From Ectocarpus siliculosus (taxonomy: Eukaryota > Sar > Phaeophyceae > Ectocarpales > Ectocarpaceae): 40,152 nucleotides of DNA. Where the stretch lies: assembly GCA_000310025.1 (NCBI GenBank), contig FN649741.1, positions 3,133,471 through 3,173,622 on the forward strand. Reading direction: 5' to 3'. The position numbers and the translations under genes were made by a program. Below are positions 7,411 to 40,152 of this stretch, in pieces (position 1 is the stretch's first letter; every line of letters begins with the position of its first letter). Under the pieces are notes generated by a model. It saw nothing but the letters and a program-made list of their open reading frames with translations. It had not been told where the DNA came from and made no database searches.

Positions 7411-7589
7411 AGCGGAAAGCAAGTGTCAACGGATGCACAGCCCGGAACGGTTTCTGTGGGGATTGAAATAGATACCAAACGACCGTTGTGACGCTGCTGC
7501 AGCGGAAAGCAAGTGTCAACGGATGCACAGCCCGGAACGGTTTCTGTGGGGATTGAAATAGATACCAAACGACCGTTGTGACGCTGCTG
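7411..7589. repeat. 90-bp tandem duplication, two copies
   Basis: The block from 7411 to 7500 is repeated at 7501-7589 with no mismatch that I can see; the match stops one base short of a full second unit. The flanking bases differ on both sides. The perfect identity suggests a recent event, or a sequence still under exchange. Confidence 0.95.
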
Positions 7590-19653: not shown

Positions 19654-22600
19654 ATGGCTCCTTCGTCTCGTCAAGCTCTTGCCGGCGCAAGCCTGGTGGC
19701 ACTGGGCGCCGGCGCTCTGCTCTGCGCCCGCGCTTACGGCAGTAGCAGCACCGCCACCGGCAGCAGGTCTAGGGGTTCGTCGTCGGCAGCCGGGTCGGAA
19801 GGCGACGTGTCAACCTCTCCTGGAAGAAAGACAGCAGAGGTGAAGGAAACATCGGAGAAGATGCGGAAGGCGGGCGACGGGCCAGCTGCTCCCAAAGAGC
19901 CCTGTGGGGGGTGTGACTGCGGCTTGATGGAGCCCGGACCGATCGAGGGCACGATGCACGCGTACGAGAGGCACATCATCATCTGCAGGTGAGGTCGGTG
20001 GTGATCCCGGGCCGCTGTTCCCGACCACAGCAAGTTGTGGTATTCCCTCCCATGACTTGAGTGCGTCATGCTGTGACACGATGGCAAATGTGCTCCAGTG
20101 TTGCTCCAGACAACAGACCGGGCCGCTTGCTTGGCACGTACAGAACGCACACGCGGCAGTGTAGTCATTTGCCGGGCAAACACGTGGCACCGCTTGTTTG
20201 GGGGTGATGAATAACTACGAAGACGATATGACGTTGGCGCATGATGCTCCCACAAAGAAGGTACAGCATTCACCAAAGGATACGTCTAGCTGTATAGCTC
20301 CGCCTTCGCCGCCTGTTCGTTTGTTGTACACCAACTACACCAACGGTCGAACCACCTCTTTGGTCATCGGGCAATTGTAGGTCTCCAATACGCGCCGCGT
20401 CCTGCTCAAGTGGCGGCAGACGTACCTGCGTACGGTACAGATAGTTGCCTGCTTCTGCGCCGTGCCTGCTTTTTCATCTAAACAGCAGTTCGTCGCCTTT
20501 GATCCGCTTTTCGAGACTGCGGTGCAGTAGTAACGGCTGGCTCGCGATTTCTCGGCTCAATCGTTGTTATGTCCTCGGAGTCTTTCTCAATTTCGAGTTT
20601 CCCCGTGTTGTGCACACCCGGTGGATTTTGTGTGGCCTTAAAATACTTCATGATACCATGGCCTCCGCCAGACCTATTTGTGCTGCAATTTTCTACTATG
20701 CAGCTCGTTCGAGAAATACAATGCATACATGCATGCGCGGCACTATTTACCCGCCGCCGGTATTGCAGAATACATTTTATTCGTTCACCCACCAGAGACG
20801 ATACGTGTGCATTGCGCCACATCACGATTGACTCATGTTTTACGTACAGTAATGGGATATTTTTTTTCGCAATTTGTTCGCACGGATTTTGTCATTGGTG
20901 GCAGTTAGGAAGACCGAACGACATGTCGTATGTTTGTCCTTCCCCAAAATCGAAGTCAACGTGATGCATAAACGTGCGGCCCGAGTCACGTGGGTATTGC
21001 ACATCGGCTTAGAATGGCAGACGCACGAGATGTTACTTCAACAAAAATATGCTTGTGGTGCCCGGGCTGCAGTCTTTTTAAGCACATCGATTCCACGTAC
21101 GGTGGAACCCCGTAATCCAGAAGGAAAACATTCCGTGGACAAAGCTGGGCTGTGGGCGCCCCTGATTCTGACGCAAGCATGCGGGAAACACACGAAGAGT
21201 GCCCTTAAGCCCGCCCTCACGCGCGATTGACCGCCTAATGTCTCCTCGGCCCACCCCGCTAACCAACGGACCCGCCCCCCGCCCCCCGGCCCCGCTCCAT
21301 TTCTCTCAGTGGACACCAGAATTGGCCGAAGGTAGTCGAGGCCGAAGAGTCGTCGTTGGCCGAGTCGCTCTTCAACCTGTGCCTGGGCGCAGGCCTGATC
21401 TTCACTAAGAAGGTCGCCTTGGCGGCGAAGAAGGCGGGCGTGCCCAAGACCCGCCAGGTCAAGATCTCGGCTTGCTCGGAGCCGTCGCGCGGGCGCGAGG
21501 GCACCACTGACGTCATCGTTTACCCGGAGGTGAGGCAGCAGGCGACAAAGCGTTTGAGTTTCTGGGGTAGTATTCAGAAGTAGTCGTCGTTGTTGCCCCT
21601 GTGCCGCTTTTGCTTCTACTGCGGGTGCAGATGAGAGGCCATCTTGCGGTCTCAGTCCTTCGCGAACGGCGCTGCTGCAGGAAAGGCAGGTCCTACCCAC
21701 CCCGCTCGTACTAACTGCTGTGCTCTCTCTCTCAGGTCAAAATTGCAGGCCGTTATTTTTTTTTTGCACCAAAGATAAAACCCACACATCCAAGGACCGA
21801 ACCTCCCCCCCCCCACCCCTTGGCCGCGTGTCTCGGTCTCGATGGGCCGTTTCTTGCGTGCTCCAGGGGCTAATCTACTCCCTCTCCCGAGACGACACGA
21901 GCTCCTTGGAGCAGTTCCTCAACGTCCAGCTCATCAACGGAGAAGTGGCGACGCAGCTCAAGCCCGTCCCCGTGTCGTATAAGAAGATGGTGCTGGTGTG
22001 CACCCACATGTCTCGGGACAAGCGGTGCGGCCGCGCGGGCCCCCAGGTGCGTCAGCGCTTATTTGTGTTGCCATGTCGGTGGGTGTACTCATCATCATTG
22101 CCGTGCATGCCGTAGTCGTTGTTGAAGAATTGACCTCGCATCCATACAAAGCCGGGATGGAGCACGCCGGGTTTTCACCGGACCAGACAAATCGTACCCA
22201 CTATTTATATTGTGGGGAAATAGTACCACTGTATGGAATTATGCGTACTGTCATATCGTCGTCGGCAGTGGGTTTGGTTTGATGCGCGTAACGTGTTTGT
22301 GCCTTTGAAGCGTCATGTGCTGTACATAAGTGGCGCTCATTCCAAGCGGGAAATGGAAACGACAACACGTAACACATTTATATTTCTGGAGAACCACGCC
22401 ACGCCACTCATTTTTTATTTCCAAGTTCAACTTGAACCCTATTGGGTTGAACTTGCATGTCTTCATTTTTGCCATATAGGTACGCTTGTTGCACATAAGA
22501 CACAACATATTTGGGCAGCGTGTTGCCGGGAACACCCTTTCTATCGGACAGATTTGGAATCAACAAGCAGACAAAGTTTCGTGTATCGCACAGGTTGTTC

Positions 22601-22986
22601 GCTCGCTTTGAGAACTTAAGTTGCGGCGTGTCGACATTACCGTGTACGCACATGTGCTACAGCCGCCCGGAAGGGAGCTTAGCAATCCCGCCTCACCCGC
22701 TCGCCCCAGCGCCGCCGTTANNNNNNNNNNNNNNNNNNNNNNNNNNNNNNNNNNNNNNNNNNNNNNNNNNNNNNNNNNNNNNNNNNNNNNNNNNNNNNNN
22801 NNNNNNNNNNNNNNNNNNNNTTTTGGAAACAAAAAAAAAAAAAAATTTTTTTTTTTCCCCAGGTTTTTCCTCCCCTTTTAAAAATAATATTGGGGGGGGG
22901 GGCAAATTCCGGTTGGGCCAATTTTCCCCACCCCCCCGGAAAGGGGGTTTGAAATCCCCCCCCCCCCCCTCCCCCCCGGGCCGCGG

Positions 22987-27418: not shown

Positions 27419-28713
27419 TCACAACGGTGGGCCATTCATCTCCTGAGCGCCGTGCGACCTCAGGATAAGAATTTCAACAAGAGGGTCGGCGACGGGCAAG
27501 GCTCCTATGCATACCAAAAGAGGTTCCAAACCCCCCGAGACCCGCACGCCGGGCCAAGACGGCAGGTCTTCGCCGGGAGGCCAAGCGATCGTCAGCTGCT
27601 TCAGAGAGGCCGGCCACTCGAAGCTCTCGTCCGGCAAGGGAAAGTCCCTGCTGAAGGTGAGCTGCCGAAGCGATGCTGGCCACGAGACGTCGCCAATTGC
27701 TTGGTCGAAGCACTCCCCGAAGACGATTTTCACGAGCGAGGGAGGCCACGTCACCTTGTCGATTGGCTGGTTGAACTTGTCGCCGAGGTTCAGCTCGGAC
27801 AGCGATGCCGGCCACGTCACCTTGTCGATGGGCTGATCGAAGTCCCGCCCAACACACAACTCCCGCACCGAAGCGGGCCAGCGGATCCGGTGTATCGGTT
27901 GATTGAAGCCGGACCCGATTGTAAGCAGCCTCAGCGACTCCGGCCACGTGACCTCGTCCAACGACTCGTTCCGAACGTGGCCGAATAGCAAAACCTGTAG
28001 CGATGCCGGCCAAGAGATCCTGCCCAGGGGCTGGGCGAGTAATCCCCAAACGTACAGCTGCAGCAGCGACCTCGGCCACACGAAGCCCTCCACTGGATGC
28101 GTGAAGTCCCCTTGGAACAGCAAAACTTGGAGCGATTCCGGGAACGCTCCCGGGTGTATGGGCTGGCTGAAGGACGGGCCCAGAACAAGGACGCGGAGAA
28201 GAGGCGGCCAAGCGAAATTGTCCATCGGCATGTTGAAGCTCGCTCCGAAGACCAGAAACCGCACGGACGCCGGCAGCGACAGGTGCTCCACGGAACGGTT
28301 GAAACCCGGGCCTAGGCCCAACAGGGTCAATTTCTCGGGCCATTGAATACCTCGGGGCAGGTCGTCGTCGAAGCCGGGACCCAGAGAAAAGGTCGTCACC
28401 TCCGACCACGCATCACCCGTCATGTTCCGCAGAGCCAGGCCCGGCAGCTTCCAGGTCACCGTACGCGCTCGGACCACCGGCACGCGGGTAACGTTGCGCC
28501 TCTTCACGCTTCGTGTCTCGCGGGTGGTGGCGGTGCCGCGCCACAAGCGGGTCGGCGTCCCGTGCTGCACGTTCAGCTTCAGCAGGTGCATGCTGCGGCA
28601 AGACGCGCAGAGCTCCAACGACGCGAGCTGGAGTTGCATCGTCGACGTGTACCACTCCCCGCCGCTTGCCTGGTTCAGGGCGATGATTAGCGCGTCTAGG
28701 CACCGGCTGGGAC
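27419..28713 (-). CDS. FNIP-repeat protein (13 repeats of 22 residues), 5' end unresolved
   Basis: A single long minus-strand exon ends in a stop at 27419. The best exon start is 28713, after a TTTTCTGGCTCGCGCAG acceptor (entering with 2 nt of a split codon). The frame also stays open to an ATG at 28786. The central part holds 13 units of 22 residues with consensus WPASLxxLxxGxxFNQPIDxVT, for example WPASLSELNLGDKFNQPI and WPESLRLLTIGSGFNQPI. This is the FNIP/LRR-like repeat known from Dictyostelium and expanded in several protists. Before the repeats are about 95 residues starting CLDALIIALNQ. After them is a short unmatched tail, EILILRSHGAQEMNGPPL. The role is probably protein binding. The 5' exon may lie in 28941-28740, where the frame MVTAPLSCALHDRLVELW and FEGELGLLEFWTARKERL looks coding. 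No donor placed there is convincing. Confidence 0.8.
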
Positions 28714-28941
28714 CTGCGCGAGCCAGAAAACACATACAAAGCAAAAAGTCTTGAGTCGGTTCAGCCGTTCTTTGCGGGCAGTCCAAAACTCAAGCAGCCC
28801 CAGCTCGCCTTCAAATCTGGGTGGTACACAGCGTTTCGGCCGCTGCTGGAGCCACAACTCGACCAAGCGATCGTGCAGGGCGCATGACAAAGGTGCTGTC
28901 ACCATTCGTGTGCGTGCATCGACGCGTGGGATGCAACACAA

Positions 28942-30085
28942 CCTTTTTCGGCGAAAAGAACGAATGGATGCTAGCTTGAAAACGCCGACATGTCAGGGGT
29001 CGAGCGGGAGAAAACGGAGGGCTCTTGTATAGTGCTAAGTAATGAAATGTGGTCGCTGCTTCTTGAGCAAACATTCGAACATACACCAGTAATAGTGGAG
29101 TGGGCTCATGAGAGCGGCGTCCTCAGGGGGTGATGCAAGATGAGACGATAAAGGCATGTAGCAGGGTTAGCCCACAGCTGGCTGCCGGCTGCCAGTTGTG
29201 GCATTTCCCAACCTCACGCAGCTGATGATGTGTTTTGACTCGAAGACTCGAAGAGTGCGACGAACCTCAACGGACCAAAGAGAACAAACTTCTTGCAGGA
29301 TCTGTATGCATAGGACTCTTCAGTCTTAATCACATGGTTTAATGTGATTACAACAACAACATGGTCTTGGAAAGGGTGGCGTGCGAGCTTGTGAATGTAT
29401 GCTATGTACTGCTGTACTGTGACGACCAAAATTCGATGGATCGTCAGAGTCAAATGCTGGATGTGAGACTGCAGTCGTCCCGCAAGACAGAAACGCATAT
29501 ATATGCAAAAACCTGATGATCTTGGGGGGCGCCGTCGCATGGCCATTGCGGTTCTCTTTTTTCGTGATGTCTCGCTGTAAAACATCTCATCTCTAACTCT
29601 ACTTTATGTACACGTTTCTGTCTTTCCGGCTGGAAAGCCCGCACTAGGGATTCGTGGGGAGGGGATTCGGGTAGCAATTTAGATGTTTAAACTCTTCCCT
29701 GCTTCATGCTATGCATACAATACACGGGGTCAACATGTCAGTTTTTGAATTGCAGTATATGATGAATACTCCCGTCGCACAACGCCCCACAACCGACCGC
29801 AGTGCCTTGGCTGCGACAAACTCACCAGTTTCGACATTCGTGTGCCGCCCGCTCCTTGTACTAACCATGATACAGAAAATCTTATGAAGAAATGGCTCCC
29901 TGGCAACCTAGCCGTTGTTGCGTGCGCTGCTGTGCAGTGCTGTGTAAGGTTGGCGGGTGGTGGGTCCGCTCACCGCACCGGGTGCAGCTTTTAGCTGCGG
30001 ATGAAAGATATTATGGGGGGTAGGGGTTCGATTCTGCGCGCCCCCTCTTTCTTGAGGGTTAGGGCAAGCAATGTTTGGGGCGGCG
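28942..30085. other. Divergent region between the FNIP-repeat and HID1 genes
   Basis: Both genes should be transcribed outward from here. I see no gene. An imperfect hairpin lies at about 29169-29198 (CCACAGCTGGC...GCTGCCAGTTGTGG). At about 29985-29999 is GCAGCTTTTAGCTGC, and at 30023-30034 a B-box-like GGGGTTCGATTC without a convincing A-box; it may be another tRNA-related remnant. Confidence 0.35.
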
Positions 30086-30477
30086 GGGCTCTCACAAATC
30101 CGCTGTCAGCCGGAGCCTGCTGATCTGTGTCTCTCCCGCTGCTGCTTTGACCCCTGATCACGTCATCACGCAACTGTCCTAGAGTTGTTTAGATTGTCCT
30201 CGGTGGTACAGCAGCAGTCATGGGCACGGGCGCGAGCAAGGTCGCGTTCAGGGATGTTCTTGCGCAGCTGAAGAACGAGGATATCGCCACGAACGACGCC
30301 GCGTTCTGGTCCAAGCTGTGGAAGACGGAGACGAATCCCCATGTAAGCGGGGAATGGCAGACAGGGAGCTATCAGCTGACCCTGTCAATGGTGTGCAGAA
30401 AGAGCTATGTAAGGCGAGAAGTATTTTCCCGGTCCTGTAGAAGCATCACTGCTCTGCTCCGGTGTTTGTCACGCACG
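30086..30477 (+). repeat. Arm A of the HID1 compound inverted repeat (mate A' at 30972-31363)
   Basis: Each base n in this arm pairs with base 61449-n in the mate, with no indel and no mismatch that I could find over 392 bp. The arm contains upstream sequence, HID1 exon 1 (30220-30342) and the start of intron 1. Confidence 0.95.
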
Positions 30478-33400
30478 TATACTCGAAGTAGAAGTTTAAG
30501 ATTCAAAATCGCGAAGGTACACTTCGTGCACCGCAAGACCGCAGACACAGCACTCTTTTTATTCTCAATAATATCATGGACACTAAAGAGTCTAAGATAG
30601 AACAGCAATGAATTCACCGCGTCAGCGGAAGTACCTGTATTTCTACGATTTACCGACGAGCATAGAGCGATATCTCCCCTGTGGGTAGCAGGGTCAGCAA
30701 GCAGACAGCTTGCGCACCTTGGCACACCGCTGTGCCGTGCCATCATGGTCTGCAGCACAGCAACAATTTGTTCAAGGCATGTTTTGTCCAACCGACTCCT
30801 GCGACAGCCAGGTGTTGTTCCTCGGCCTGCCCTCGTGGCAGCAGCAGTTGCAGTGCACCCAGATTCACGGCTCGCCCATACCCACCACCAGTGCCCTTTG
30901 CTCTCCCGCACGAACGCCGACCGTGTGACCGCGTGGAGCAAATGACACTCATACATTTCCGCCGCAAAATCCGTGCGTGACAAACACCGGAGCAGAGCAG
31001 TGATGCTTCTACAGGACCGGGAAAATACTTCTCGCCTTACATAGCTCTTTCTGCACACCATTGACAGGGTCAGCTGATAGCTCCCTGTCTGCCATTCCCC
31101 GCTTACATGGGGATTCGTCTCCGTCTTCCACAGCTTGGACCAGAACGCGGCGTCGTTCGTGGCGATATCCTCGTTCTTCAGCTGCGCAAGAACATCCCTG
31201 AACGCGACCTTGCTCGCGCCCGTGCCCATGACTGCTGCTGTACCACCGAGGACAATCTAAACAACTCTAGGACAGTTGCGTGATGACGTGATCAGGGGTC
31301 AAAGCAGCAGCGGGAGAGACACAGATCAGCAGGCTCCGGCTGACAGCGGATTTGTGAGAGCCCGCCTCCTTGTACCAGCGTTCTTGCCATGCACACCACT
31401 AAAATACTGCTGGATTTTGCGGCGGAAATGTATGAGTGTCATTTGCTCCACGCGGTCACACGGTCGGCGTTCGTGCGGGAGAGCAAAGGGCACTGGTGGT
31501 GGGTATGGGCGAGCCGTGAATCTGGGTGCACTGCAACTGCTGCTGCCACGAGGGCAGGCCGAGGAACAACACCTGGCTGTCGCAGGAGTCGGTTGGACAA
31601 AACATGCCTTGAACAAATTGTTGCTGTGCTGCAGACCATGATGGCACGGCACAGCGGTGTGCCAAGGTGCGCAAGCTGTCTGCTTGCTGACCCTGCTACC
31701 CACAGGGGAGATATCGCTCTATGCTCGTCGGTAAATCGTAGAAATACAGGTACTTCCGCTGACGCGGTGAATTCATTGCTGTTCTATCTTAGACTCTTTA
31801 GTGTCCATGATATTATTGAGAATAAAAAGAGTGCTGTGTCTGCGGTCTTGCGGTGCACGAAGTGTACCTTCGCGATTTTGAATCTTAAACTTCTACTTCG
31901 AGTATACAGCAGTATTTTAGTGGTGTGCATGGCAAGAACGCTGGTACAAGGATTTATATTCGTTCAAATGAACAAGCGCGCAGCTCGATCTGGGTGCATG
32001 CGGTGGGTCTGATGTGTTACGAAAACGAGTGAGCGTCTCCTCGTCCTCGGTCCAAGTTTCCCCAACACTCTGCGTATGCGTATGAACCTGACTTGGTATC
32101 GCGTTATTCGTCCGCAGGGTCAATTGTTGTCAAAAGACGAGCGTTATTACTACGGCAGCAGTCCGCAGAGTGAATGCAAGAAGGACATTCTTTGAAGACG
32201 CCTCCTAATCTCGCGTGTGGTATGAGTTAGACCATAGGGTTGAAGGAACATGCATAAAACGACGACGGGAGGCAGGCCGCGCGATGGGCACGGCTTTTCC
32301 GGCCCGGCCCTCACCCACGAGCACCCCCTTCCCCTCTTATTCCTGCTTATTCCGTGAAAAAATGCGCTTGTTGTGCAGGATGTTTTCGAAGTAATCTCCC
32401 CCACTGCCGTGAGAAAGCTGAAGGTCGCGCGTCCGGGAAACGTTGAGGCCCTCCTGAGGATGGCTGTCTCGCACCTGGAGAAGGTGATGACGTCATGTGT
32501 TTGGCGGGGGGGGGGGGCGTACTCTTATGTTTTGCATGCCTTAGCGGTTAGACCATTGACCACGCGTCCTCGAGAGGACGGATCATTGTTTCCACAGGAC
32601 CGATCACCGATGGCCAATCGTTCCTTCCTACTTTGCCAAAGGTGGCTCAAAAATGTCTTCCCTAGTCTGTCTATCCTAACGATATCCCTTCCCGCCTTTT
32701 CAAACCACTTCCTACTCCCCAGTACAGCTACCGTCCTCTCCTCTTTATTCCATGCCTCAAACATCTCCCTGTACGTCCCTTGTATTCTTCCCAGCTCAGT
32801 CATGTACACTTCCCTCTCATCTTCGTACCACGGACATTCCGCGACTACATGAACACGGTCTTCGCATTCGAAGCCGCAATCAAATTTGAACTTGTCGTCT
32901 TCGTCGTCTACCGTCCTATGTCTTCGTCGACGTTCTCGAAGGCCTATGTCCCCGGTCCTGAATTTGACCTTAAGCTTTGTCCCTGCATCCATTGGTCCAT
33001 GTAGGTAATCCTTGAACCCTATTCCTTCTTTCAACATTCCGTACACTTCTAGACCCTCCTTATCCTTGGTTTCTTTCCTTAGATTATGTTCTTCTCTCTC
33101 GGCACAAGCAACAGATATCTTCTCCTTGAACCCCTGTAGACCCTCCGTTTCCAGCGTTTCATCTTCGTCGATGTCTAACCCCTTCCATACGTCCTCTACA
33201 ACCTTGCCCATTCCGTGGGTTGTCTACCCCTCTTTTTGTTTGCCCACTTCGCCTCCCATACTATTCTCGGCAACCTCTCCTCTCCCATCCCGCACATGCG
33301 ATACTGCCATGTCAGTTTGGGGGGGGGGGGCAGAATCGTGTTCCAAGTTTAAGTTTACAATAACGGCATGTTTTGTTGTGTGAACACCGGCATGTTTACC

Positions 33401-34135
33401 TAGTTGCAGTTTCAGGCGAGCAGAGTTAGTGTCGGGCCTCATCGCAAAACTGTCGCCCCCGGTTCCATTGACTGGTAGGTTTTTGTCGGCATACATCCTT
33501 CACGCATGTGCGTCTGTGAGGCGAAACGTTAATTGCGCATGCTGCACTCTTACCCCTTTTGGAATGGGTTTATATGGGAAGCGTTATCCAGCGGACTCCA
33601 AGTCCTATCGTACCCCTGTAAGTGTGCTCCTGACAGTCGAGGGGGATATTCGATTTGGGGTTATCAGATTAGGAACATCCGAAGCGTGGTACATACTGTG
33701 CTGGCAATACCTGCATACTTGTATGCACCGCCGTACACCGCTTGATGAAAAACCTGGACTTGTCTCACGCGGGGCTTGAGTCGAGACATCGCAGCATTGC
33801 CACGGCACAAGCCTGCCGTCCCCCTTCGGCCCTTGCCGGAGCAATTCCTCTTCACTCGAAAACGAGAACAAGACCAACAAATTCCTTTCCTCTTTCTTGT
33901 TTCCTTCCAGGTGGTGGACGATCCCGATCCCTTCGTGCTCAAGAGCGCGATGACCGCCGTGAGTGTGCTGACCAGGGTGTTGCCCTTCATACTGGAGGCG
34001 TACACCGACCCGGAAACGGGGGAGGTCGATCCCGCTCTGCATTCGATGTTCTGGTCGGCGGAAGAGGAACCGCCGTCGACCGCGGCGACGGCGACTAGGG
34101 ATGGGGCCGGGGCGGGGGCGGGGACGGGAGAACAG

Positions 34136-34166
<31 letters not shown>

Positions 34167-36012
34167 CAGATGCACGGGTGGCGCTGGGGTCGGCGATGGT
34201 GTCGGCCACCATGCGGCTGCTGTTCACGCGGCAGCTCACGGTGGACGTGTACTCTTCGTGCGAATCGGTCGACGCAGGTGTGGTCATGCTACCGGTGTTG
34301 CTGTTGTTGTAGCGTTGGCAGTCCTTTTCACGCCTGTTCCGCACCGAGTTTTTTTTTAGAAGTTTCCCTGTATACGTGTAAAGCCTAGTCTGTCATTGGG
34401 GTTTAATTGTTGGTGGAACCTCCGATCGATCCACCCCCATCACGCCGTCAAGTGTGCGGGATAGTGTCCCTGTGCTCTGTAACGGGGATAGATGCAGCGG
34501 CGGAAATAAGTCCAACCCATAAAATACTACCTTTTTCACACTTTTGGTGATGAGTTTACTTACTTGAACCGATCCGAAAGGAGAGCGGTCATCCGTTGGA
34601 CGTCACATTGGTTTGTAAGGAGCCGAGTTTTTGTTTTTCGCCGTGTCTGAGTGCACGGTGTCCAGTTGCGGTGCCATGGGGGTGGTTTGAGGCAACCGAC
34701 ACATGAGCATGCCCCCCCCGTCCCCCGTCGCCGTCTCCTAACACGTCCGTTCTGGATCAACCGAGCAGATGCGGATAACCCCCTTGAGATCCATGATCCG
34801 AGGGCGTTGTGGTCGGGGGGGTTGGACGTGGGTAGGAAAGCAAGGATCCAGCGAAGCCGAGAGCTGGAGGCTAATCGAATCGAGGTGGGTGCGGCAAGGA
34901 GAGGGGGGGGGTAGGAGGGTTGGTCCCTCCGCTACTTTCATGTTGTCTATCAATGGCGTTGTCGCGAGGGGCTGCGGGGATGACGGGAAGGTGGTGCAAG
35001 CCGTGTGACGTGCGCCTGGCTCTTGGCACTCCGGCTCGCTGTAGTTCCACTCGGTGTGCTCTCGACCGACGCGGCCTGGGGGTGGTGTCGTGCTTGTGTT
35101 GGCAGCTTTGCCGTGGCGGTATACAGAGGGAATGTCGTCACACGCCACCCCATCGCCAGGAGCGTTGTCGTTTGGGGATGACTTGAAGTTTGGCAACCAT
35201 CTGCGTCGATTGTCGTGTCTCCCCGCTGAACGTCGTTCACCAGTCAGCGAGGAGTATCTCCCCGCAGAATGACTGTATCGTTCAGGGGGGGGGGGGGGGT
35301 CGCGACGGACTTGGTTGTTGCCAGAATAACATGGGCCTGTGTGAACCCTCGTCGACGCGGCGCGTCCGGCCGAATATCCGAACAGGTGATGCGGCTGCTG
35401 CTGGTGCTGATGTGCGAGCCTCTGTTCCAGCGGAACGTGGGCTTCGATCCGACCGCCTCCAGGTGCGTGTGCGCTGGGGGGGGCGGCGGATGGTTGCGTG
35501 TCGGATAGGAGTATGCGGCCAGTGCGTCGAAGGACAGGAGCAGAGCTGCTCACCGACTCTCGTGCCTGACAGCACGCTCGAGGTTTTTGGATAGGCGGTG
35601 TGAATACAACGGCGAAAACAACAACGCACCATCGCACAGACAGCAGTGAAGCGTGTCTGTACAGCGGTACGGGACCGGATCATCCAATGGAACGAGACTC
35701 GCACGGGAAGTTTCTGCCAGCGCCCCACCCGGTCTTGCTCTTGGTCACGATACGGATGATGACAAGTGCGAGAGATACGAAGAGTATTGCAGGCGTGGCC
35801 ACTCGTCCTACCCGTCCCGCTGCCGCCGTTTTTCCGTGTGCGTCTACGACTCCTGGCAGGGCGCCCTGCAGCCGGGCTCGGTCCGGGATTTCTGTGCGTC
35901 GGATTTTTGTTGTCGATGTTGTGGTGCCGTCTGTCTTTTTTGCGATCATGCGGTAGGCGCTCGAGTCCCCGGAGCCAACGTGGACAAGGTCTACGCCAAT
36001 CGTCTCTCTGCC

Positions 36013-36043
<31 letters not shown>

Positions 36044-39000
36044 GTGTTCCTTCTCTTTCTGTATCCTCTCTCTCCGTCTCTCTTCTCTCGCTCCCTCCCT
36101 CCCTTCTCTCTTCGTTAGCGTACCGCGGAACCGGCACCGGTGACATGTACACCGCAGGCATGAACGCAACCCTATACCTACTTCGTGGCATGCCTCCGGA
36201 CGGCGACCACGTCGCGCAATGCCTCAGCCCCAGCTCCCACCCCCACCCCCGTTCTCGCGACCCGCGTCACACGCGACAGGTTTGCGGAAGAGGTCTGCAA
36301 GGCCGACGCCCCGTTCGCCGCGGAGCTGTTCTTCTCCCTCTTGAGCGTCATCGCCACGTACGATCCAGTGGGCTGGGGGGTCCCGTACGCGGGGTCGTTC
36401 ACCACCGACCTACCCGCCCGCCAACTGGAAATGTCGGCACAGGTATGCACGTGTGCGTGCGCCGAAGATTCGTGTGTACGAGTTCTTGATGCTTGGGTTT
36501 CCCTCCCTGGTTTACGACGCCCGTTCCCCTCCGCGGCGAAAACCCCTGTTCCGTTGGGCTCGTATGTTTGTAATTGTTTACCCCTGCTTGCTATCTTCCG
36601 TCTCTTTTTTTTTGTCGGTCCATGCGAATTCTGGCGTTCTCTATCCGAGAACCTGCGCTTCAAGCTCTGCAGGAATGTACACGGCTGCTGTTGTCTTTAT
36701 TTTGGCTTCTCTGCTTTGAGGCGTACTGGTCTCCGGTTGAGCTCTCCGGAAGATGAGTTGTTGTGCTGGTACATGAGTGGTGACAACACCAAAGGGTTGG
36801 AGTGGTTTCAAGTGGCGTCTTCGTCAGCCCTCCTTCGTCCCTTTCTCCCTCCTCTACACAGTGCAGTTCAGACTCTTTCGTTGCCTCCTCCAACCCCCCC
36901 TCCACGCCGATAAACACTCACGCTTTCGTCTCTCTGTCTTGGTGCGTATTCTCACTCGTGTATATTTCGTTTCCTAAGCCCCCCGCGCCCCCCACTCTTC
37001 ACGTCTTTTCGCTCTCATCTGTGATGGCCGTTTGCGCCGTTTTCCTTGATCCTTCCCCCGGTGTTGCGTGTGGGTTTGGGTTATTAGTTGTTGATCGTGC
37101 TGCTGGACCACGGGAAGCCGCCGTTACCCGTGGTGACCAGCTCAGCGGGGCCGGACGGAGAATCGCCGGTGAGTGCGCAGCATCCGCTCGTTCTTTGCTG
37201 TGTTTGTGGTTGTCGCTGTTGTTATGGCTGCTATGGTTGTCGCTGTTGTTATGGCTGCTATGGCTGTTGCTGTTGTTATGGCTGCTATGGCTGTTGCTGT
37301 TGTTATGGCTGCTATGGCTGTTGCTGTTGTTATGGCTGCTATGGCTGTTGCTGTTGTTATGGCTGCTATGGCTGTTGCTGTTGTTATGGCTGCTATGGCT
37401 GCTGCGGCTGCTGCTGCTGCTGCTGCAGTTGTTTCTTGTTGGTGGAGGTGGTAGTTCGGCCGCTGTTCTTGTGTCAACTCCTTCGTCTTGCGGTACGTAG
37501 AAGTAGGAGTATATGCAGTATGTGGTGCGGGACGGGTCCCTGTCGGTTCCCGTGTCGCACGCGAGGTACTACTGTTGTCTGCACCTTGATAATCTCTCAG
37601 GCCCTCAGCAACAGTTGAAGTTATTTCTTTCCTGGAGGACTTTTCGTGTCCCATCGCCAGACCTGGTGTCCTGCGTCCCCGAACACCCTTGTGCCAAGAA
37701 ATTTTCTGCATTGCATGTTTTCCTGCTGCCCCTTTTTCCCTATGATAAACCGCTCACGTAGTGTCTAGTTGGTGGGGTGCGCCTTCGACATGTCGGGTCA
37801 ACCGGTTTTTCAACCTTGTAGCCAAGAATGCGGCATCACCAGCAAGTGCCAGCGGCTGCCAAGCCCCTCCATCTCGTGACCGCTCGCGTGCATGTGCTCG
37901 CCTCTTCTTTCTTGTTGTGAGTCTGTCTGCTGTTGCCGCCTTCCTTTTTCATAGCACGACTTTGTCCTTGTCACCGATCGATGTCGTTTTTTGTTGAACG
38001 GCGACCTGTCTTGCTCGGAAGGACCAGCAGACGGCGGTAAGGGAAGACCCTCCCACCCCCGGCGACGTGGGCTACAACGTCTTCCGCAACCTGGTGCTGC
38101 ACGGCCTTAAGGACGAGGAGGACTTCGAGCTCGTCTACACCGGTCTGTCGCGGCTGCTCAACACCCTGCACCGCTCGCGGAACACCTACATGCCCGGGGC
38201 GGCCACGGAGGTACGATCTGAATTTCCGTAGGAAACGATACGGATAACCGGCGGCGCGCTGCGCACCAACAACCCGCCGTTTTTGTCGCGATGCTCTGGT
38301 ATGTTTTTTTTGTTGCGCCCCCCCCCGAGTTTATGTGGGATCGCAGAAAGGTTTGTGTTTTCCTCTTATCACGTCTCGGAGCTTGATCGATTATCTTGTT
38401 GCGAGTAGAGATGTGGGCACCCGGTTCTTTGGAGGGGATTTCCCGTGCGTTTTGTTATTGATTGCGCTGCTGCAATGAAGAGTTCACCGCACGTGCCACC
38501 AATAGTCAGTAGGTATAGTGTCGATGTAACATAGTGGAGGTTCGCCCCTACTGCACATTTAATGCTGTTGTTTTTTGAGTCTGGAAACGAACAAGTGCAC
38601 AACACACAAGGTCAACAGCTGGACCGAACTTCGATCGTGCCTTGGTTTGTCTACGTAGGTTTACTGCTACCAGGAGGTGCTGGTGCTGCTGTGGAAGCTG
38701 CTAGAGGAGAACCCGGTCTTCATGCAGTACGTTCTCAAGAACTGCGACATCAATGAGGTGTGCGTTATTCTAGCCTATCTATTGTGGTTGATCGAGTTCA
38801 GTTCGCTGGACGACGACGGACGCCTTGCCTTCCCGGTAGCCCCGTCTCCGTTTTTTCGAGAACATGTTACCGCAGGTTTTGTCAGGGTACGGCACCCCCC
38901 CCGTGCGACGACTCCCTCGGCAACACGAAGACGAAAGAATCCCGTGTAAGTATTCCTCGTCCTTTTTTTCCATCTCGTTTGTCCACCCTCGCCGTGGCCC

Positions 39001-39904
39001 CCCTTTTCTGCGCGGGCCCACGCGCCGCCGAAAATTTTGACGGCGACGCCGGCCCGCCTCGACCGCACGCACGCACGCGGCGCGGTAGATCTTGGTGCCG
39101 GTGTGCTACCTCCTGGTAGAGAACCGTAAGGACGTCTCCAAGGGGGGTCTGATCCACATCTGCACCTTCGTGCTGCTCAAGCTTTCCGGCGAGAGGGCCT
39201 TCGGCGTGGCCATCAACAAGGCCTGCAGCGTGCGGCTGCCGACGGACCTGCCCCTGTTCTACGGTGAGCGATGTTATGAGCCCGTGAGCTGCGATGGTAG
39301 AGGACGGAAGTAGGCGTCACGGCCGTGGGCCGAAAATATTCAGTGCTTGTGAGTGTGTGCTTGGTAGCATCGAAATTTGCGCTCTCCTCAGGCTTGGCGC
39401 GCGCGACGAGAATTATTGGCCCGCGCTTTGCGCGTGCGGCGAGAATTAAAAACTCGCAATGTAGGTTAATATACTGTTTTCGTCGTTGACAAGGCGGGAG
39501 CCGCCAATCAAGCCAAGTATCCAGCGCTGAGCCATCTTGTCCCATGTGGCCATCGCGTATGCAGAGCTCCGAATGAAACGCCGAGAGAAGCAGGCCCAGC
39601 GAGGGCACGCTCCAACCCAACCGAGATGCGCGATCGACGGCATACGGCAACGAAAACAAGCAGCGAAATGAGCACGCCCCCCTCCCGTTTCTGCGTGCAC
39701 GTTGAAAATCAAATAACCAGGCTCGCACCTGGACCTCCTGATCCTGACCGTGCACAAGCTCCTGGTTGCCGGGTCGGACAGGCTGAGCACCCTCTACCAC
39801 TGCTTCCTGACGGTGCTCTGCAACGTCTCTCCGTATGCCAAGGGCCTGAGCCTGATCGCGTCCGTGAAGCTGCTCAGCCTCTTCGAGCTCTTCACTAGTC
39901 CCGG
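30220..39904 (+). CDS. HID1: HID1 homologue (Golgi/secretory trafficking), N-terminal 11 exons, gene runs off the window
   Basis: Exons: 30220-30342, 32379-32483, 33911-34277, 34769-34884, 35386-35462, 36280-36442, 37088-37168, 38031-38210, 38659-38757, 39089-39263 and 39721-39904. All GT/AG borders and phases agree, giving about 556 residues of a family usually near 790. The start MGTGASK fits N-myristoylation (Gly2, Ser6). Family landmarks in order are DAAFWSKLWKTE, VSVLTRVLPFILE, DPRALWSGGLDVG, SVIATYDPVGWGVPY, LLIVLLDHG, EVLVLLWKLLEENP, GGLIHICTFVLLKLSGERAF and VRLPTDLPLF, then HLDLLILTVHKLLVAGSDRL and VLCNVSPYAKGLSLI. HID1 is a peripheral trans-Golgi protein needed for dense-core-granule and Golgi sorting in animals; the fission yeast relative Ftp105 anchors a deubiquitinase at the Golgi. 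Exon 3 carries an alga-specific low-complexity insert (AT/GA-rich, then 11 Gln). Exon 8 could start 3 nt earlier (CAGCAG). Intron 1 contains the compound inverted repeat and intron 2 a retrotransposon fragment. Confidence 0.95.
30477..30972 (+). repeat. Arm B of the HID1 compound inverted repeat (mate B' at 31412-31907)
   Basis: Base n pairs with base 62384-n over 496 bp, without visible mismatch. Arm B is the spacer between A and A'; its mate B' is the spacer between C and C'. I recognise no gene or transposon within B. Confidence 0.95.
30972..31363 (-). repeat. Arm A' (inverted copy of A, with antisense HID1 exon 1)
   Basis: This is the perfect reverse complement of 30086-30477, joined to B by a shared base at 30972. 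Three bases (31364-31366) separate it from arm C. Confidence 0.95.
31107..31229 (-). pseudogene. Antisense duplicate of HID1 exon 1 within HID1 intron 1
   Basis: The minus strand repeats the 41 codons of exon 1, beginning MGTGASKVAFRDVL, and its GTAAGC splice donor. There are no downstream HID1 exons on this strand, so it cannot give a full protein. The copy also includes about 134 bases of upstream sequence, so it may carry a promoter fragment firing back towards the real exon 1. Confidence 0.9.
31367..31412 (+). repeat. Arm C of the HID1 compound inverted repeat (mate C' at 31907-31952)
   Basis: Base n pairs with base 63319-n over 46 bp. C and C' flank B' exactly, with one shared base at each junction (31412 and 31907). 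Confidence 0.95.
31412..31907 (-). repeat. Arm B' (inverted copy of B)
   Basis: This is the perfect reverse complement of 30477-30972. In the simplest reading it is the ancestral orientation, because C' and the unique sequence leading to HID1 exon 2 follow it. Confidence 0.95.
31907..31952 (-). repeat. Arm C' (inverted copy of C)
   Basis: Reverse complement of 31367-31412. It marks the right border of the compound repeat; unique sequence continues from 31953 to HID1 exon 2. Confidence 0.95.
32484..33330 (-). mobile_element. Non-LTR retrotransposon 3'-end fragment in HID1 intron 2
   Basis: A minus-strand frame from 33211 to 32525 (228 codons) is highly charged and ends in a Cys/His knuckle, DCGFECEDRVHVVAECPWYE (CX3CX4HX4C), followed by Glu/Arg-rich sequence. 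This resembles the region after the reverse transcriptase in LINE-type elements, where such a zinc knuckle precedes the end of ORF2. No reverse transcriptase or endonuclease core is visible, so the copy would be 5'-truncated, as is usual for LINEs. Long G runs flank it (about 32505-32517 and 33319-33331), preceded by similar words (CATGTGTTTGG and CATGTCAGTTTGG). Near its 3' end the minus strand reads GTGGTCAATGGTCTAACCGC, a tRNA A-box-like motif. Class assignment is by motif only. Confidence 0.55.
34133..34167 (+). repeat. CAG repeat encoding polyglutamine in HID1 exon 3
   Basis: A CAG/CAA tract encodes 11 consecutive Gln after a Gly/Ala-rich stretch, within the coding part of exon 3. The flanking HID1 sequence resumes at DARVALGSAMVSATMRLL, so this is an insertion in a loop rather than a frame problem. 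Confidence 0.9.
36001..36113. repeat. CT-rich microsatellite in HID1 intron 5
   Basis: Runs of CTGT, CT and CCCT. It lies within the 817-base intron between exons 35386-35462 and 36280-36442 and may help form a pyrimidine tract. Long frames crossing it are artefacts. Confidence 0.9.
37215..37403. repeat. 27-bp minisatellite, seven copies, in HID1 intron 7
   Basis: The core GCTGTTGTTATGGCTGCTAT recurs every 27 bases from 37215, at 37242, 37269, 37296, 37323, 37350 and 37377. The first two units differ slightly (GGTTGTC instead of GGCTGTT). A CTG run follows. Because 27 is divisible by three, all frames stay open on both strands and imitate coding sequence, but the HID1 splice join skips it. 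Confidence 0.95.
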
Positions 39905-40152
39905 GTTAGTGTCTCCAAAAACGCCGTGATTTTACCGGGGGGGGGGGGTAGGCTGTTCTGTCCTATTAGTGGCACGACGCTCGTGTTTCCTTTTTGTTGT
40001 TGTTGTGATGGCGGGCTACGATTTATTGGCGGACCTCTGTAAAGCAGCAACAGCGGAAGAGGGTTTGGCCAGTAGCGAGCGGGTGCGTTCGAGAGGCGAA
40101 AGGGGGAGGGGGGGGGGGGGGGGGGGGGGGCCCGGGGGAAAAAAAACCTCAG
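39905..40152. other. Right edge of window: HID1 intron 11 and poor sequence
   Basis: After the donor at 39905, intron sequence continues to the end. G runs at 39938-39948 and of more than 20 G near 40109-40130, then A runs, suggest low-quality contig-end sequence. The remaining HID1 exons lie beyond. Confidence 0.7.

Follow-up and report, generated by a model that had tools for sequence, protein, structure and literature searches.

The HID1-type gene and the repeat over its first exon

The window (the whole stretch of DNA that was analysed, 40,152 nucleotides; C16:3133471-3173622) belongs to an Ectocarpus siliculosus assembly that comprises 492 contigs and 189.46 Mb. The EsV-1-7 motif, which is expanded in brown algae, has at least 150 scored matches among 880 candidates in this assembly and none in 14 control genomes, as fits a brown alga. 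Exons 1 and 2 of a gene on its forward strand, the latter beginning at 32379 behind a CAG acceptor read from the sequence, together match the Pfam models Hid1 (PF12722; E 2.2e-14, 53.1 bits) and Dymeclin (E 4.1e-12, 45.7 bits). Further downstream, the piece 33749-34309 scores 35.2 bits with Hid1 versus 27.3 with Dymeclin, and the piece 39717-39926 scores 72 bits with Dymeclin versus 54.6 with Hid1; Hid1 lies above its cut-off in all three gene pieces. Profile matches of the two models were found at this locus only, exon by exon on the + strand, and reach C16:3177843. Because both models match this one locus alone, the matches were read as one gene, which looks like a single HID1/dymeclin-family gene with HID1 as the likelier name. 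A 456-aa open frame with FNIP repeats (27419-28789, - strand; Pfam PF05725, E 9.1e-31) lies upstream of this gene and opposite to it, and a 27-bp tandem repeat (37207-37405; 7.4 copies, 98% matches) lies inside its span.

The first exon is covered by a compound repeat at 30086-31952, in which three inverted-repeat pairs are interlocked in the block order A-B-A'-C-B'-C'. Its blocks and the adjoining gene features are as follows:

30220..30342, + strand: coding exon 1, followed by the donor GTAAGC; included in the Pfam match of exons 1 and 2
30343..32378, + strand: intron 1, 2036 bp, with splice sites read from sequence alone
30086..30477, + strand: block A, the 5' region of the HID1-type gene, which takes in the start codon and exon 1 and runs into intron 1
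30477..30972, + strand: block B, copy one, containing a dispersed repeat of about 117 bp
30972..31363, - strand: block A', the exact reverse complement of A, with exon 1 present in antisense
31364..31366, no strand: GCC at the A'/C junction, either the left flank 30082-30084 minus one G, or filler
31367..31412, - strand: block C, the inverted copy of C'
31412..31907, - strand: block B', a perfect inverted copy of B
31907..31952, + strand: block C', 46 bp, adjoining a right flank with no further match among the best 40 of 469 candidates from the assembly

Direct comparison reproduced the interlocked perfect pairs described in the first-pass annotation: 30086-30477 is the reverse complement of 30972-31363 (A/A', 392 bp), 30477-30972 that of 31412-31907 (B/B', 496 bp) and 31367-31412 that of 31907-31952 (C/C', 46 bp), in each case with 0 mismatches. 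Adjoining blocks have one base in common, at 30477, 30972, 31412 and 31907, exactly as had been noted, and the exon that was said to be HID1 exon 1 is a HID1/dymeclin-family exon 1 and lies in A. The repeat finder gives arms of 395 and 49 nt, having stretched two of the pairs by 3 bases across one mismatch. At arm lengths of 392, 496 and 46 bp, chance origin is not an issue. Exon 1 and the splice sites look intact, and the 935 extra bp fall in intron 1, which without them measures 1101 bp. The possibility of a tRNA upstream of A, raised by a T-arm-like stretch there, was dropped as ARAGORN detected no tRNA.

No substitution separates the copies in 932 compared sites, which places their divergence below about 0.3% (95%). 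This backs a recent origin, one of the options named in the first-pass annotation, unless gene conversion keeps the arms alike; the compound would accordingly be recent, or held uniform by gene conversion, or false.

Junctions, further copies and base rate

Among the five internal junctions, one fuses the outer ends of the segment (end of C to start of A). The inner breakpoints A/B and B/C are each found in a normal and an inverted form, with a 1-base overlap and with nothing lost, and the outer junction has either no shared base or a 3-base filler. The junctions thus show little or no homology, as the class of circle-mediated duplications requires. The extra bases at the outer junction read GCC, or GGC on the opposite strand, and coincide with 30082-30084 once a G is dropped from the G4 tract at 30085-30088, a left-flank match with a chance of about 1.8% for the single offset tried. 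As the repeat could therefore run three bases further with an indel, GCC may belong to A, with a 1-base indel, rather than being a scar, which is suggestive only. The three bases that had been taken for a circle-closing scar are present, and the left-flank match weakens that interpretation of them. By eye, the outer bases beside A and C' have no short common direct repeat that would mark a target-site duplication (the repeat finder reports repeats of at least 20 nt).

Assembly searches with 29950-30600 as the query returned local copies only, and with 31364-32200 they returned local copies together with the dispersed repeat inside B; no further copies of A or C were reported for these two queries, nor was a further full-length copy of B among the best 40 of 469 candidates, which were scored. 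Those best 40 of 469 candidates place the dispersed repeat of about 117 bp (31683-31799 and its copy) at at least 38 other sites, with 80-89% identity. When the sampled pieces described below and the rest of the window were searched, B', A with its left flank and C' with its right flank matched only their own flanks. A mobile element was rejected because A and C have no other reported copies and B no full one; the further genomic copies expected of a TIR transposon were absent from the best 40 of 469 candidates for the query spanning B and C. A second allele or paralogue of the locus was likewise set aside, none having been reported in the assembly by searches that may miss matches (the profile search overlooked exon 1). 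The edges of the dispersed repeat were considered as a clue to the ancestral orientation of B and are uninformative, as the repeat sits wholly within B. Base skew of the intron parts is mixed and does not decide that orientation.

The base rate of such structures was taken from 24 pieces of 10 kb of the same assembly at hand-picked, not random, positions; two of these are all N, and the sample amounts to 215,946 non-N bases, or 0.216 Mb of 189 Mb (about 0.1%). Within none of the 24 pieces was there an inverted pair that reached both 100 bp and 95% identity. The longest sampled inverted pair (149 bp, 94.6%, in piece L016) is a dispersed repeat, and five shorter ones measure 47-83 bp at 80-92%. 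Direct repeats of more than 100 bp and more than 90% identity number two (181 bp in L007 and 367 bp in L021). Judged by this sample of about 0.1% of the assembly, the compound is not a usual product of it.

Several other repeats were observed in the window and the sample. The dispersed repeat of about 149 bp at L016 6338-6486 has matches of 133-149 bp at 90-97% in L007, L010, L011, L021 and L022, and a weaker match at window positions 22095-22186. A perfect 90-bp tandem duplication (2.0 copies; 89-bp exact match) occupies 7411-7589. An open frame of 232 aa with no Pfam match (32525-33223, - strand), apparently antisense within intron 2, looks like a transposon remnant; six sampled pieces (L002, L006, L010, L011, L016 and L017) contain matches to 63-145-bp stretches of this DNA at 81-90%.

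Orders with shared junctions and the routes to them

When all block orders were enumerated with A first, C last, every block used twice and the junctions kept unchanged, six isomers resulted, identical in their five junctions and in copy numbers. They can be divided by the number of steps required: (i) whichever way B lay in the ancestor, four of the six take a tandem duplication and a single inversion; (ii) the observed order and one other result from two inversions after a tandem duplication, or from one inverted insertion of a circle. In the assembled order, the insert consists of A-B-C circularly permuted and inverted, with the outer ends fused, which is what marks a circle-mediated duplication. 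The circle model of the first-pass annotation therefore has the right topology, as inverted self-insertion of a circularised A-B-C gives the observed order for either orientation of B; it is not unique, given the six isomers.

Self-insertion of a circle is the most economical reading of the assembled order, one we hold tentatively and at somewhat less than even confidence. By this route, the 932-bp segment A-B-C would have been copied once and the copy returned inverted inside itself. The A-B-C circle would have been closed by end joining and would have broken at one inner point. It would then have been joined, in reverse orientation, into the donor or its sister where that was broken at the other inner point, leaving intron 1 longer by 935 bp. 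The circle is favoured because it yields the observed order in two steps, whereas a tandem duplication needs two further inversions, and because a broken circle that enters one break uses two breakpoints twice each without coincidence. The zero mismatches in all three pairs are as expected of one event, and it also counts in favour of the circle that the assembly searches reported no further copy of A or C and, among the best 40 of 469 candidates, none of full-length B. Against it, five other orders fit the identical five junctions. The circle reading would suffice for the order, but it rests on the assembler's phasing of perfect repeats of 392 and 496 bp.

Junctions of this kind have been described in proposed circle-mediated duplications in human, which carry microhomologies of 1-2 bp or have gained or lost 1 to 27 bp (PMC7450558). 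The 1-base overlaps and the filler of at most 3 bases resemble these and so favour the circle. The segmental duplications of that study (Chicote 2020), in which circular DNA converts A-B/C-D into B-A/D-C, likewise have fused outer ends with 1-2 bp microhomology or short indels; they differ in segment size (22-3918 kb), in the distance between copies (0.09-58 Mb, or a different chromosome) and in that other primates supplied the ancestral state. In eccDNA-mediated duplication (Takahashi and Innan 2020, PMC7188851), too, a circularised copy is proposed to have been cut elsewhere and reinserted with the block order swapped, and in its lariat class part of the copy is flipped. Those cases are human (3 circle and 20 lariat candidates), with insertion at another location and flipped regions of more than 500 bp, whereas the target inferred here is the donor segment itself, and the copy is inverted and totals 0.9 kb. 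In the parts covered of PMC7450558 and PMC7188851, insertion of a circle into its own donor segment is not described, and a literature search on eccDNA reintegration returned no paper matching all terms. Judged by titles and abstract openings, the papers that a search on small inverted duplications singled out held nothing close. Cattle colour-sidedness reportedly arose by serial translocation via circular intermediates, with reinsertion of a circle in permuted order. In its Discussion, PMC7188851 cites cattle in support of eccDNA reintegration.

With four of the six isomers reachable by a tandem duplication and one inversion, a circle is not required. The assembled order lies one repeat-arm flip (in the A, B or C arms) from three of those four, so a tandem duplication of A-B-C followed by one inversion and then by a homologous-recombination flip between inverted arms (A/A', 392 bp, or B/B', 496 bp) is the reading that comes second, albeit on the unlikely side. 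Direct tandem duplications do happen in this genome, as the 367-bp example in L021 (93.7%) testifies, and an inversion polymorphism between inverted repeats is known at human PLP1 (PMC4352052), where the arms are far longer, at about 20 kb. Arms of 392-496 bp are short for such a flip, no intermediate was seen, and three events would have had to take place without any substitution in between. If the compound did arise in this way, its isomers may still interconvert.

An assembly or library artefact could take the form of a mis-phased simpler isomer or of a false duplication, for example one in which two orientations of B were merged. A simple inversion of B, present in both orientations, has just four of the five internal junctions, and the zero mismatches between arms would fit such a fault, as would the runs of N, perhaps gaps or withheld sequence, that occur in the window and in 9 of the 24 sampled pieces. 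The junction between the end of C and the start of A nevertheless demands a real join, the sole N run of the window (22721-22820) lies about 7.3 kb away, and the 215,946 sampled bases contain no similar structure, which argues against a pervasive fault; an artefact, of the whole compound or of its block order, is considered unlikely. At the C. elegans rcan-1 locus, which carries a complex inversion/duplication, PCR failed and a long read and short reads together resolved the structure (PMC7058356). That locus resembles the present one in local inversions and duplications that affect a gene together with the sequence upstream of it, and differs in having five inversion/duplications, two full gene copies and a reported change in expression.

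Serial template switching in replication (forward through A-B, back through A, back through C-B and forward through C) gives an identical product in one pass, as the first-pass annotation had stated. It is not the equal alternative that was proposed there, because it must reuse two breakpoints: its four free inner ends fall on two positions only, so that two pairs of switch ends coincide. In a uniform simulation of ends within 932 bp, both coincidences within 2 bases arose with a probability of about 3.3e-5 and at least one with about 1.1%, under a crude model with uniform free ends that was set up after the structure was seen. Routes by breakage and joining have the coincidence built in, and it is in this respect that the simulation sets template switching apart. 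Replication errors are reported to produce small inverted triplications in yeast rad27 (FEN1) mutants (PMC13334657), for which, as for DUP-TRP/INV-DUP structures at PLP1 (PMC4352052), template-switch models have been put forward. Both classes share inverted copies with the present case, but they contain a triplicated segment with three copies and the middle one inverted, whereas A, B and C each occur twice here; the inner overlap is 1 base here versus a median of 6 bp in PMC13334657. Template switching is thus regarded as very unlikely. Retro-copying of a circular RNA was rejected, as the outer junction does not coincide with GT/AG sites.

Taken together, we read the compound as a recent, end-joined local rearrangement that looks real, with circle self-insertion as the preferred, still tentative, account of its order.

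Predicted RNA folding and implications

The antisense copy of exon 1 in A' raises the question of a hairpin in the pre-mRNA. When A-B-A' is folded alone, the start codon is predicted to pair with A' (-1025.6 kcal/mol). When all 1867 bases are folded (-1379.3 kcal/mol), pairing of B with B' takes up 496 of 496 bases and that of A with A' 0 of 391, in a program that cannot represent the pseudoknot in which A:A' and B:B' are both formed. An exon-1 hairpin was accordingly rejected as a stable RNA fold. A 392-bp A:A' hairpin of the pre-mRNA over exon 1 could in principle form, plausibly only during transcription. Because B is predicted to pair with B', no effect on the gene is claimed. The idea that circle self-insertion left both flipping isomers and a nascent 392-bp hairpin over exon 1, and with them an antisense switch of the gene's own making, is highly improbable; the predicted B:B' fold speaks against the hairpin part, unless the hairpin arises co-transcriptionally.

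As a general caution, six structures have identical junctions at this locus, and short reads alone therefore cannot back one mechanism over another. If the assembled order is a phasing error, the locus is marked for correction. If it is real as assembled, the start of this HID1-type gene would carry a very small and recent rearrangement in which every junction is readable, and which could help to distinguish three routes: reinsertion of a circle, template switching, and duplication with inversion.
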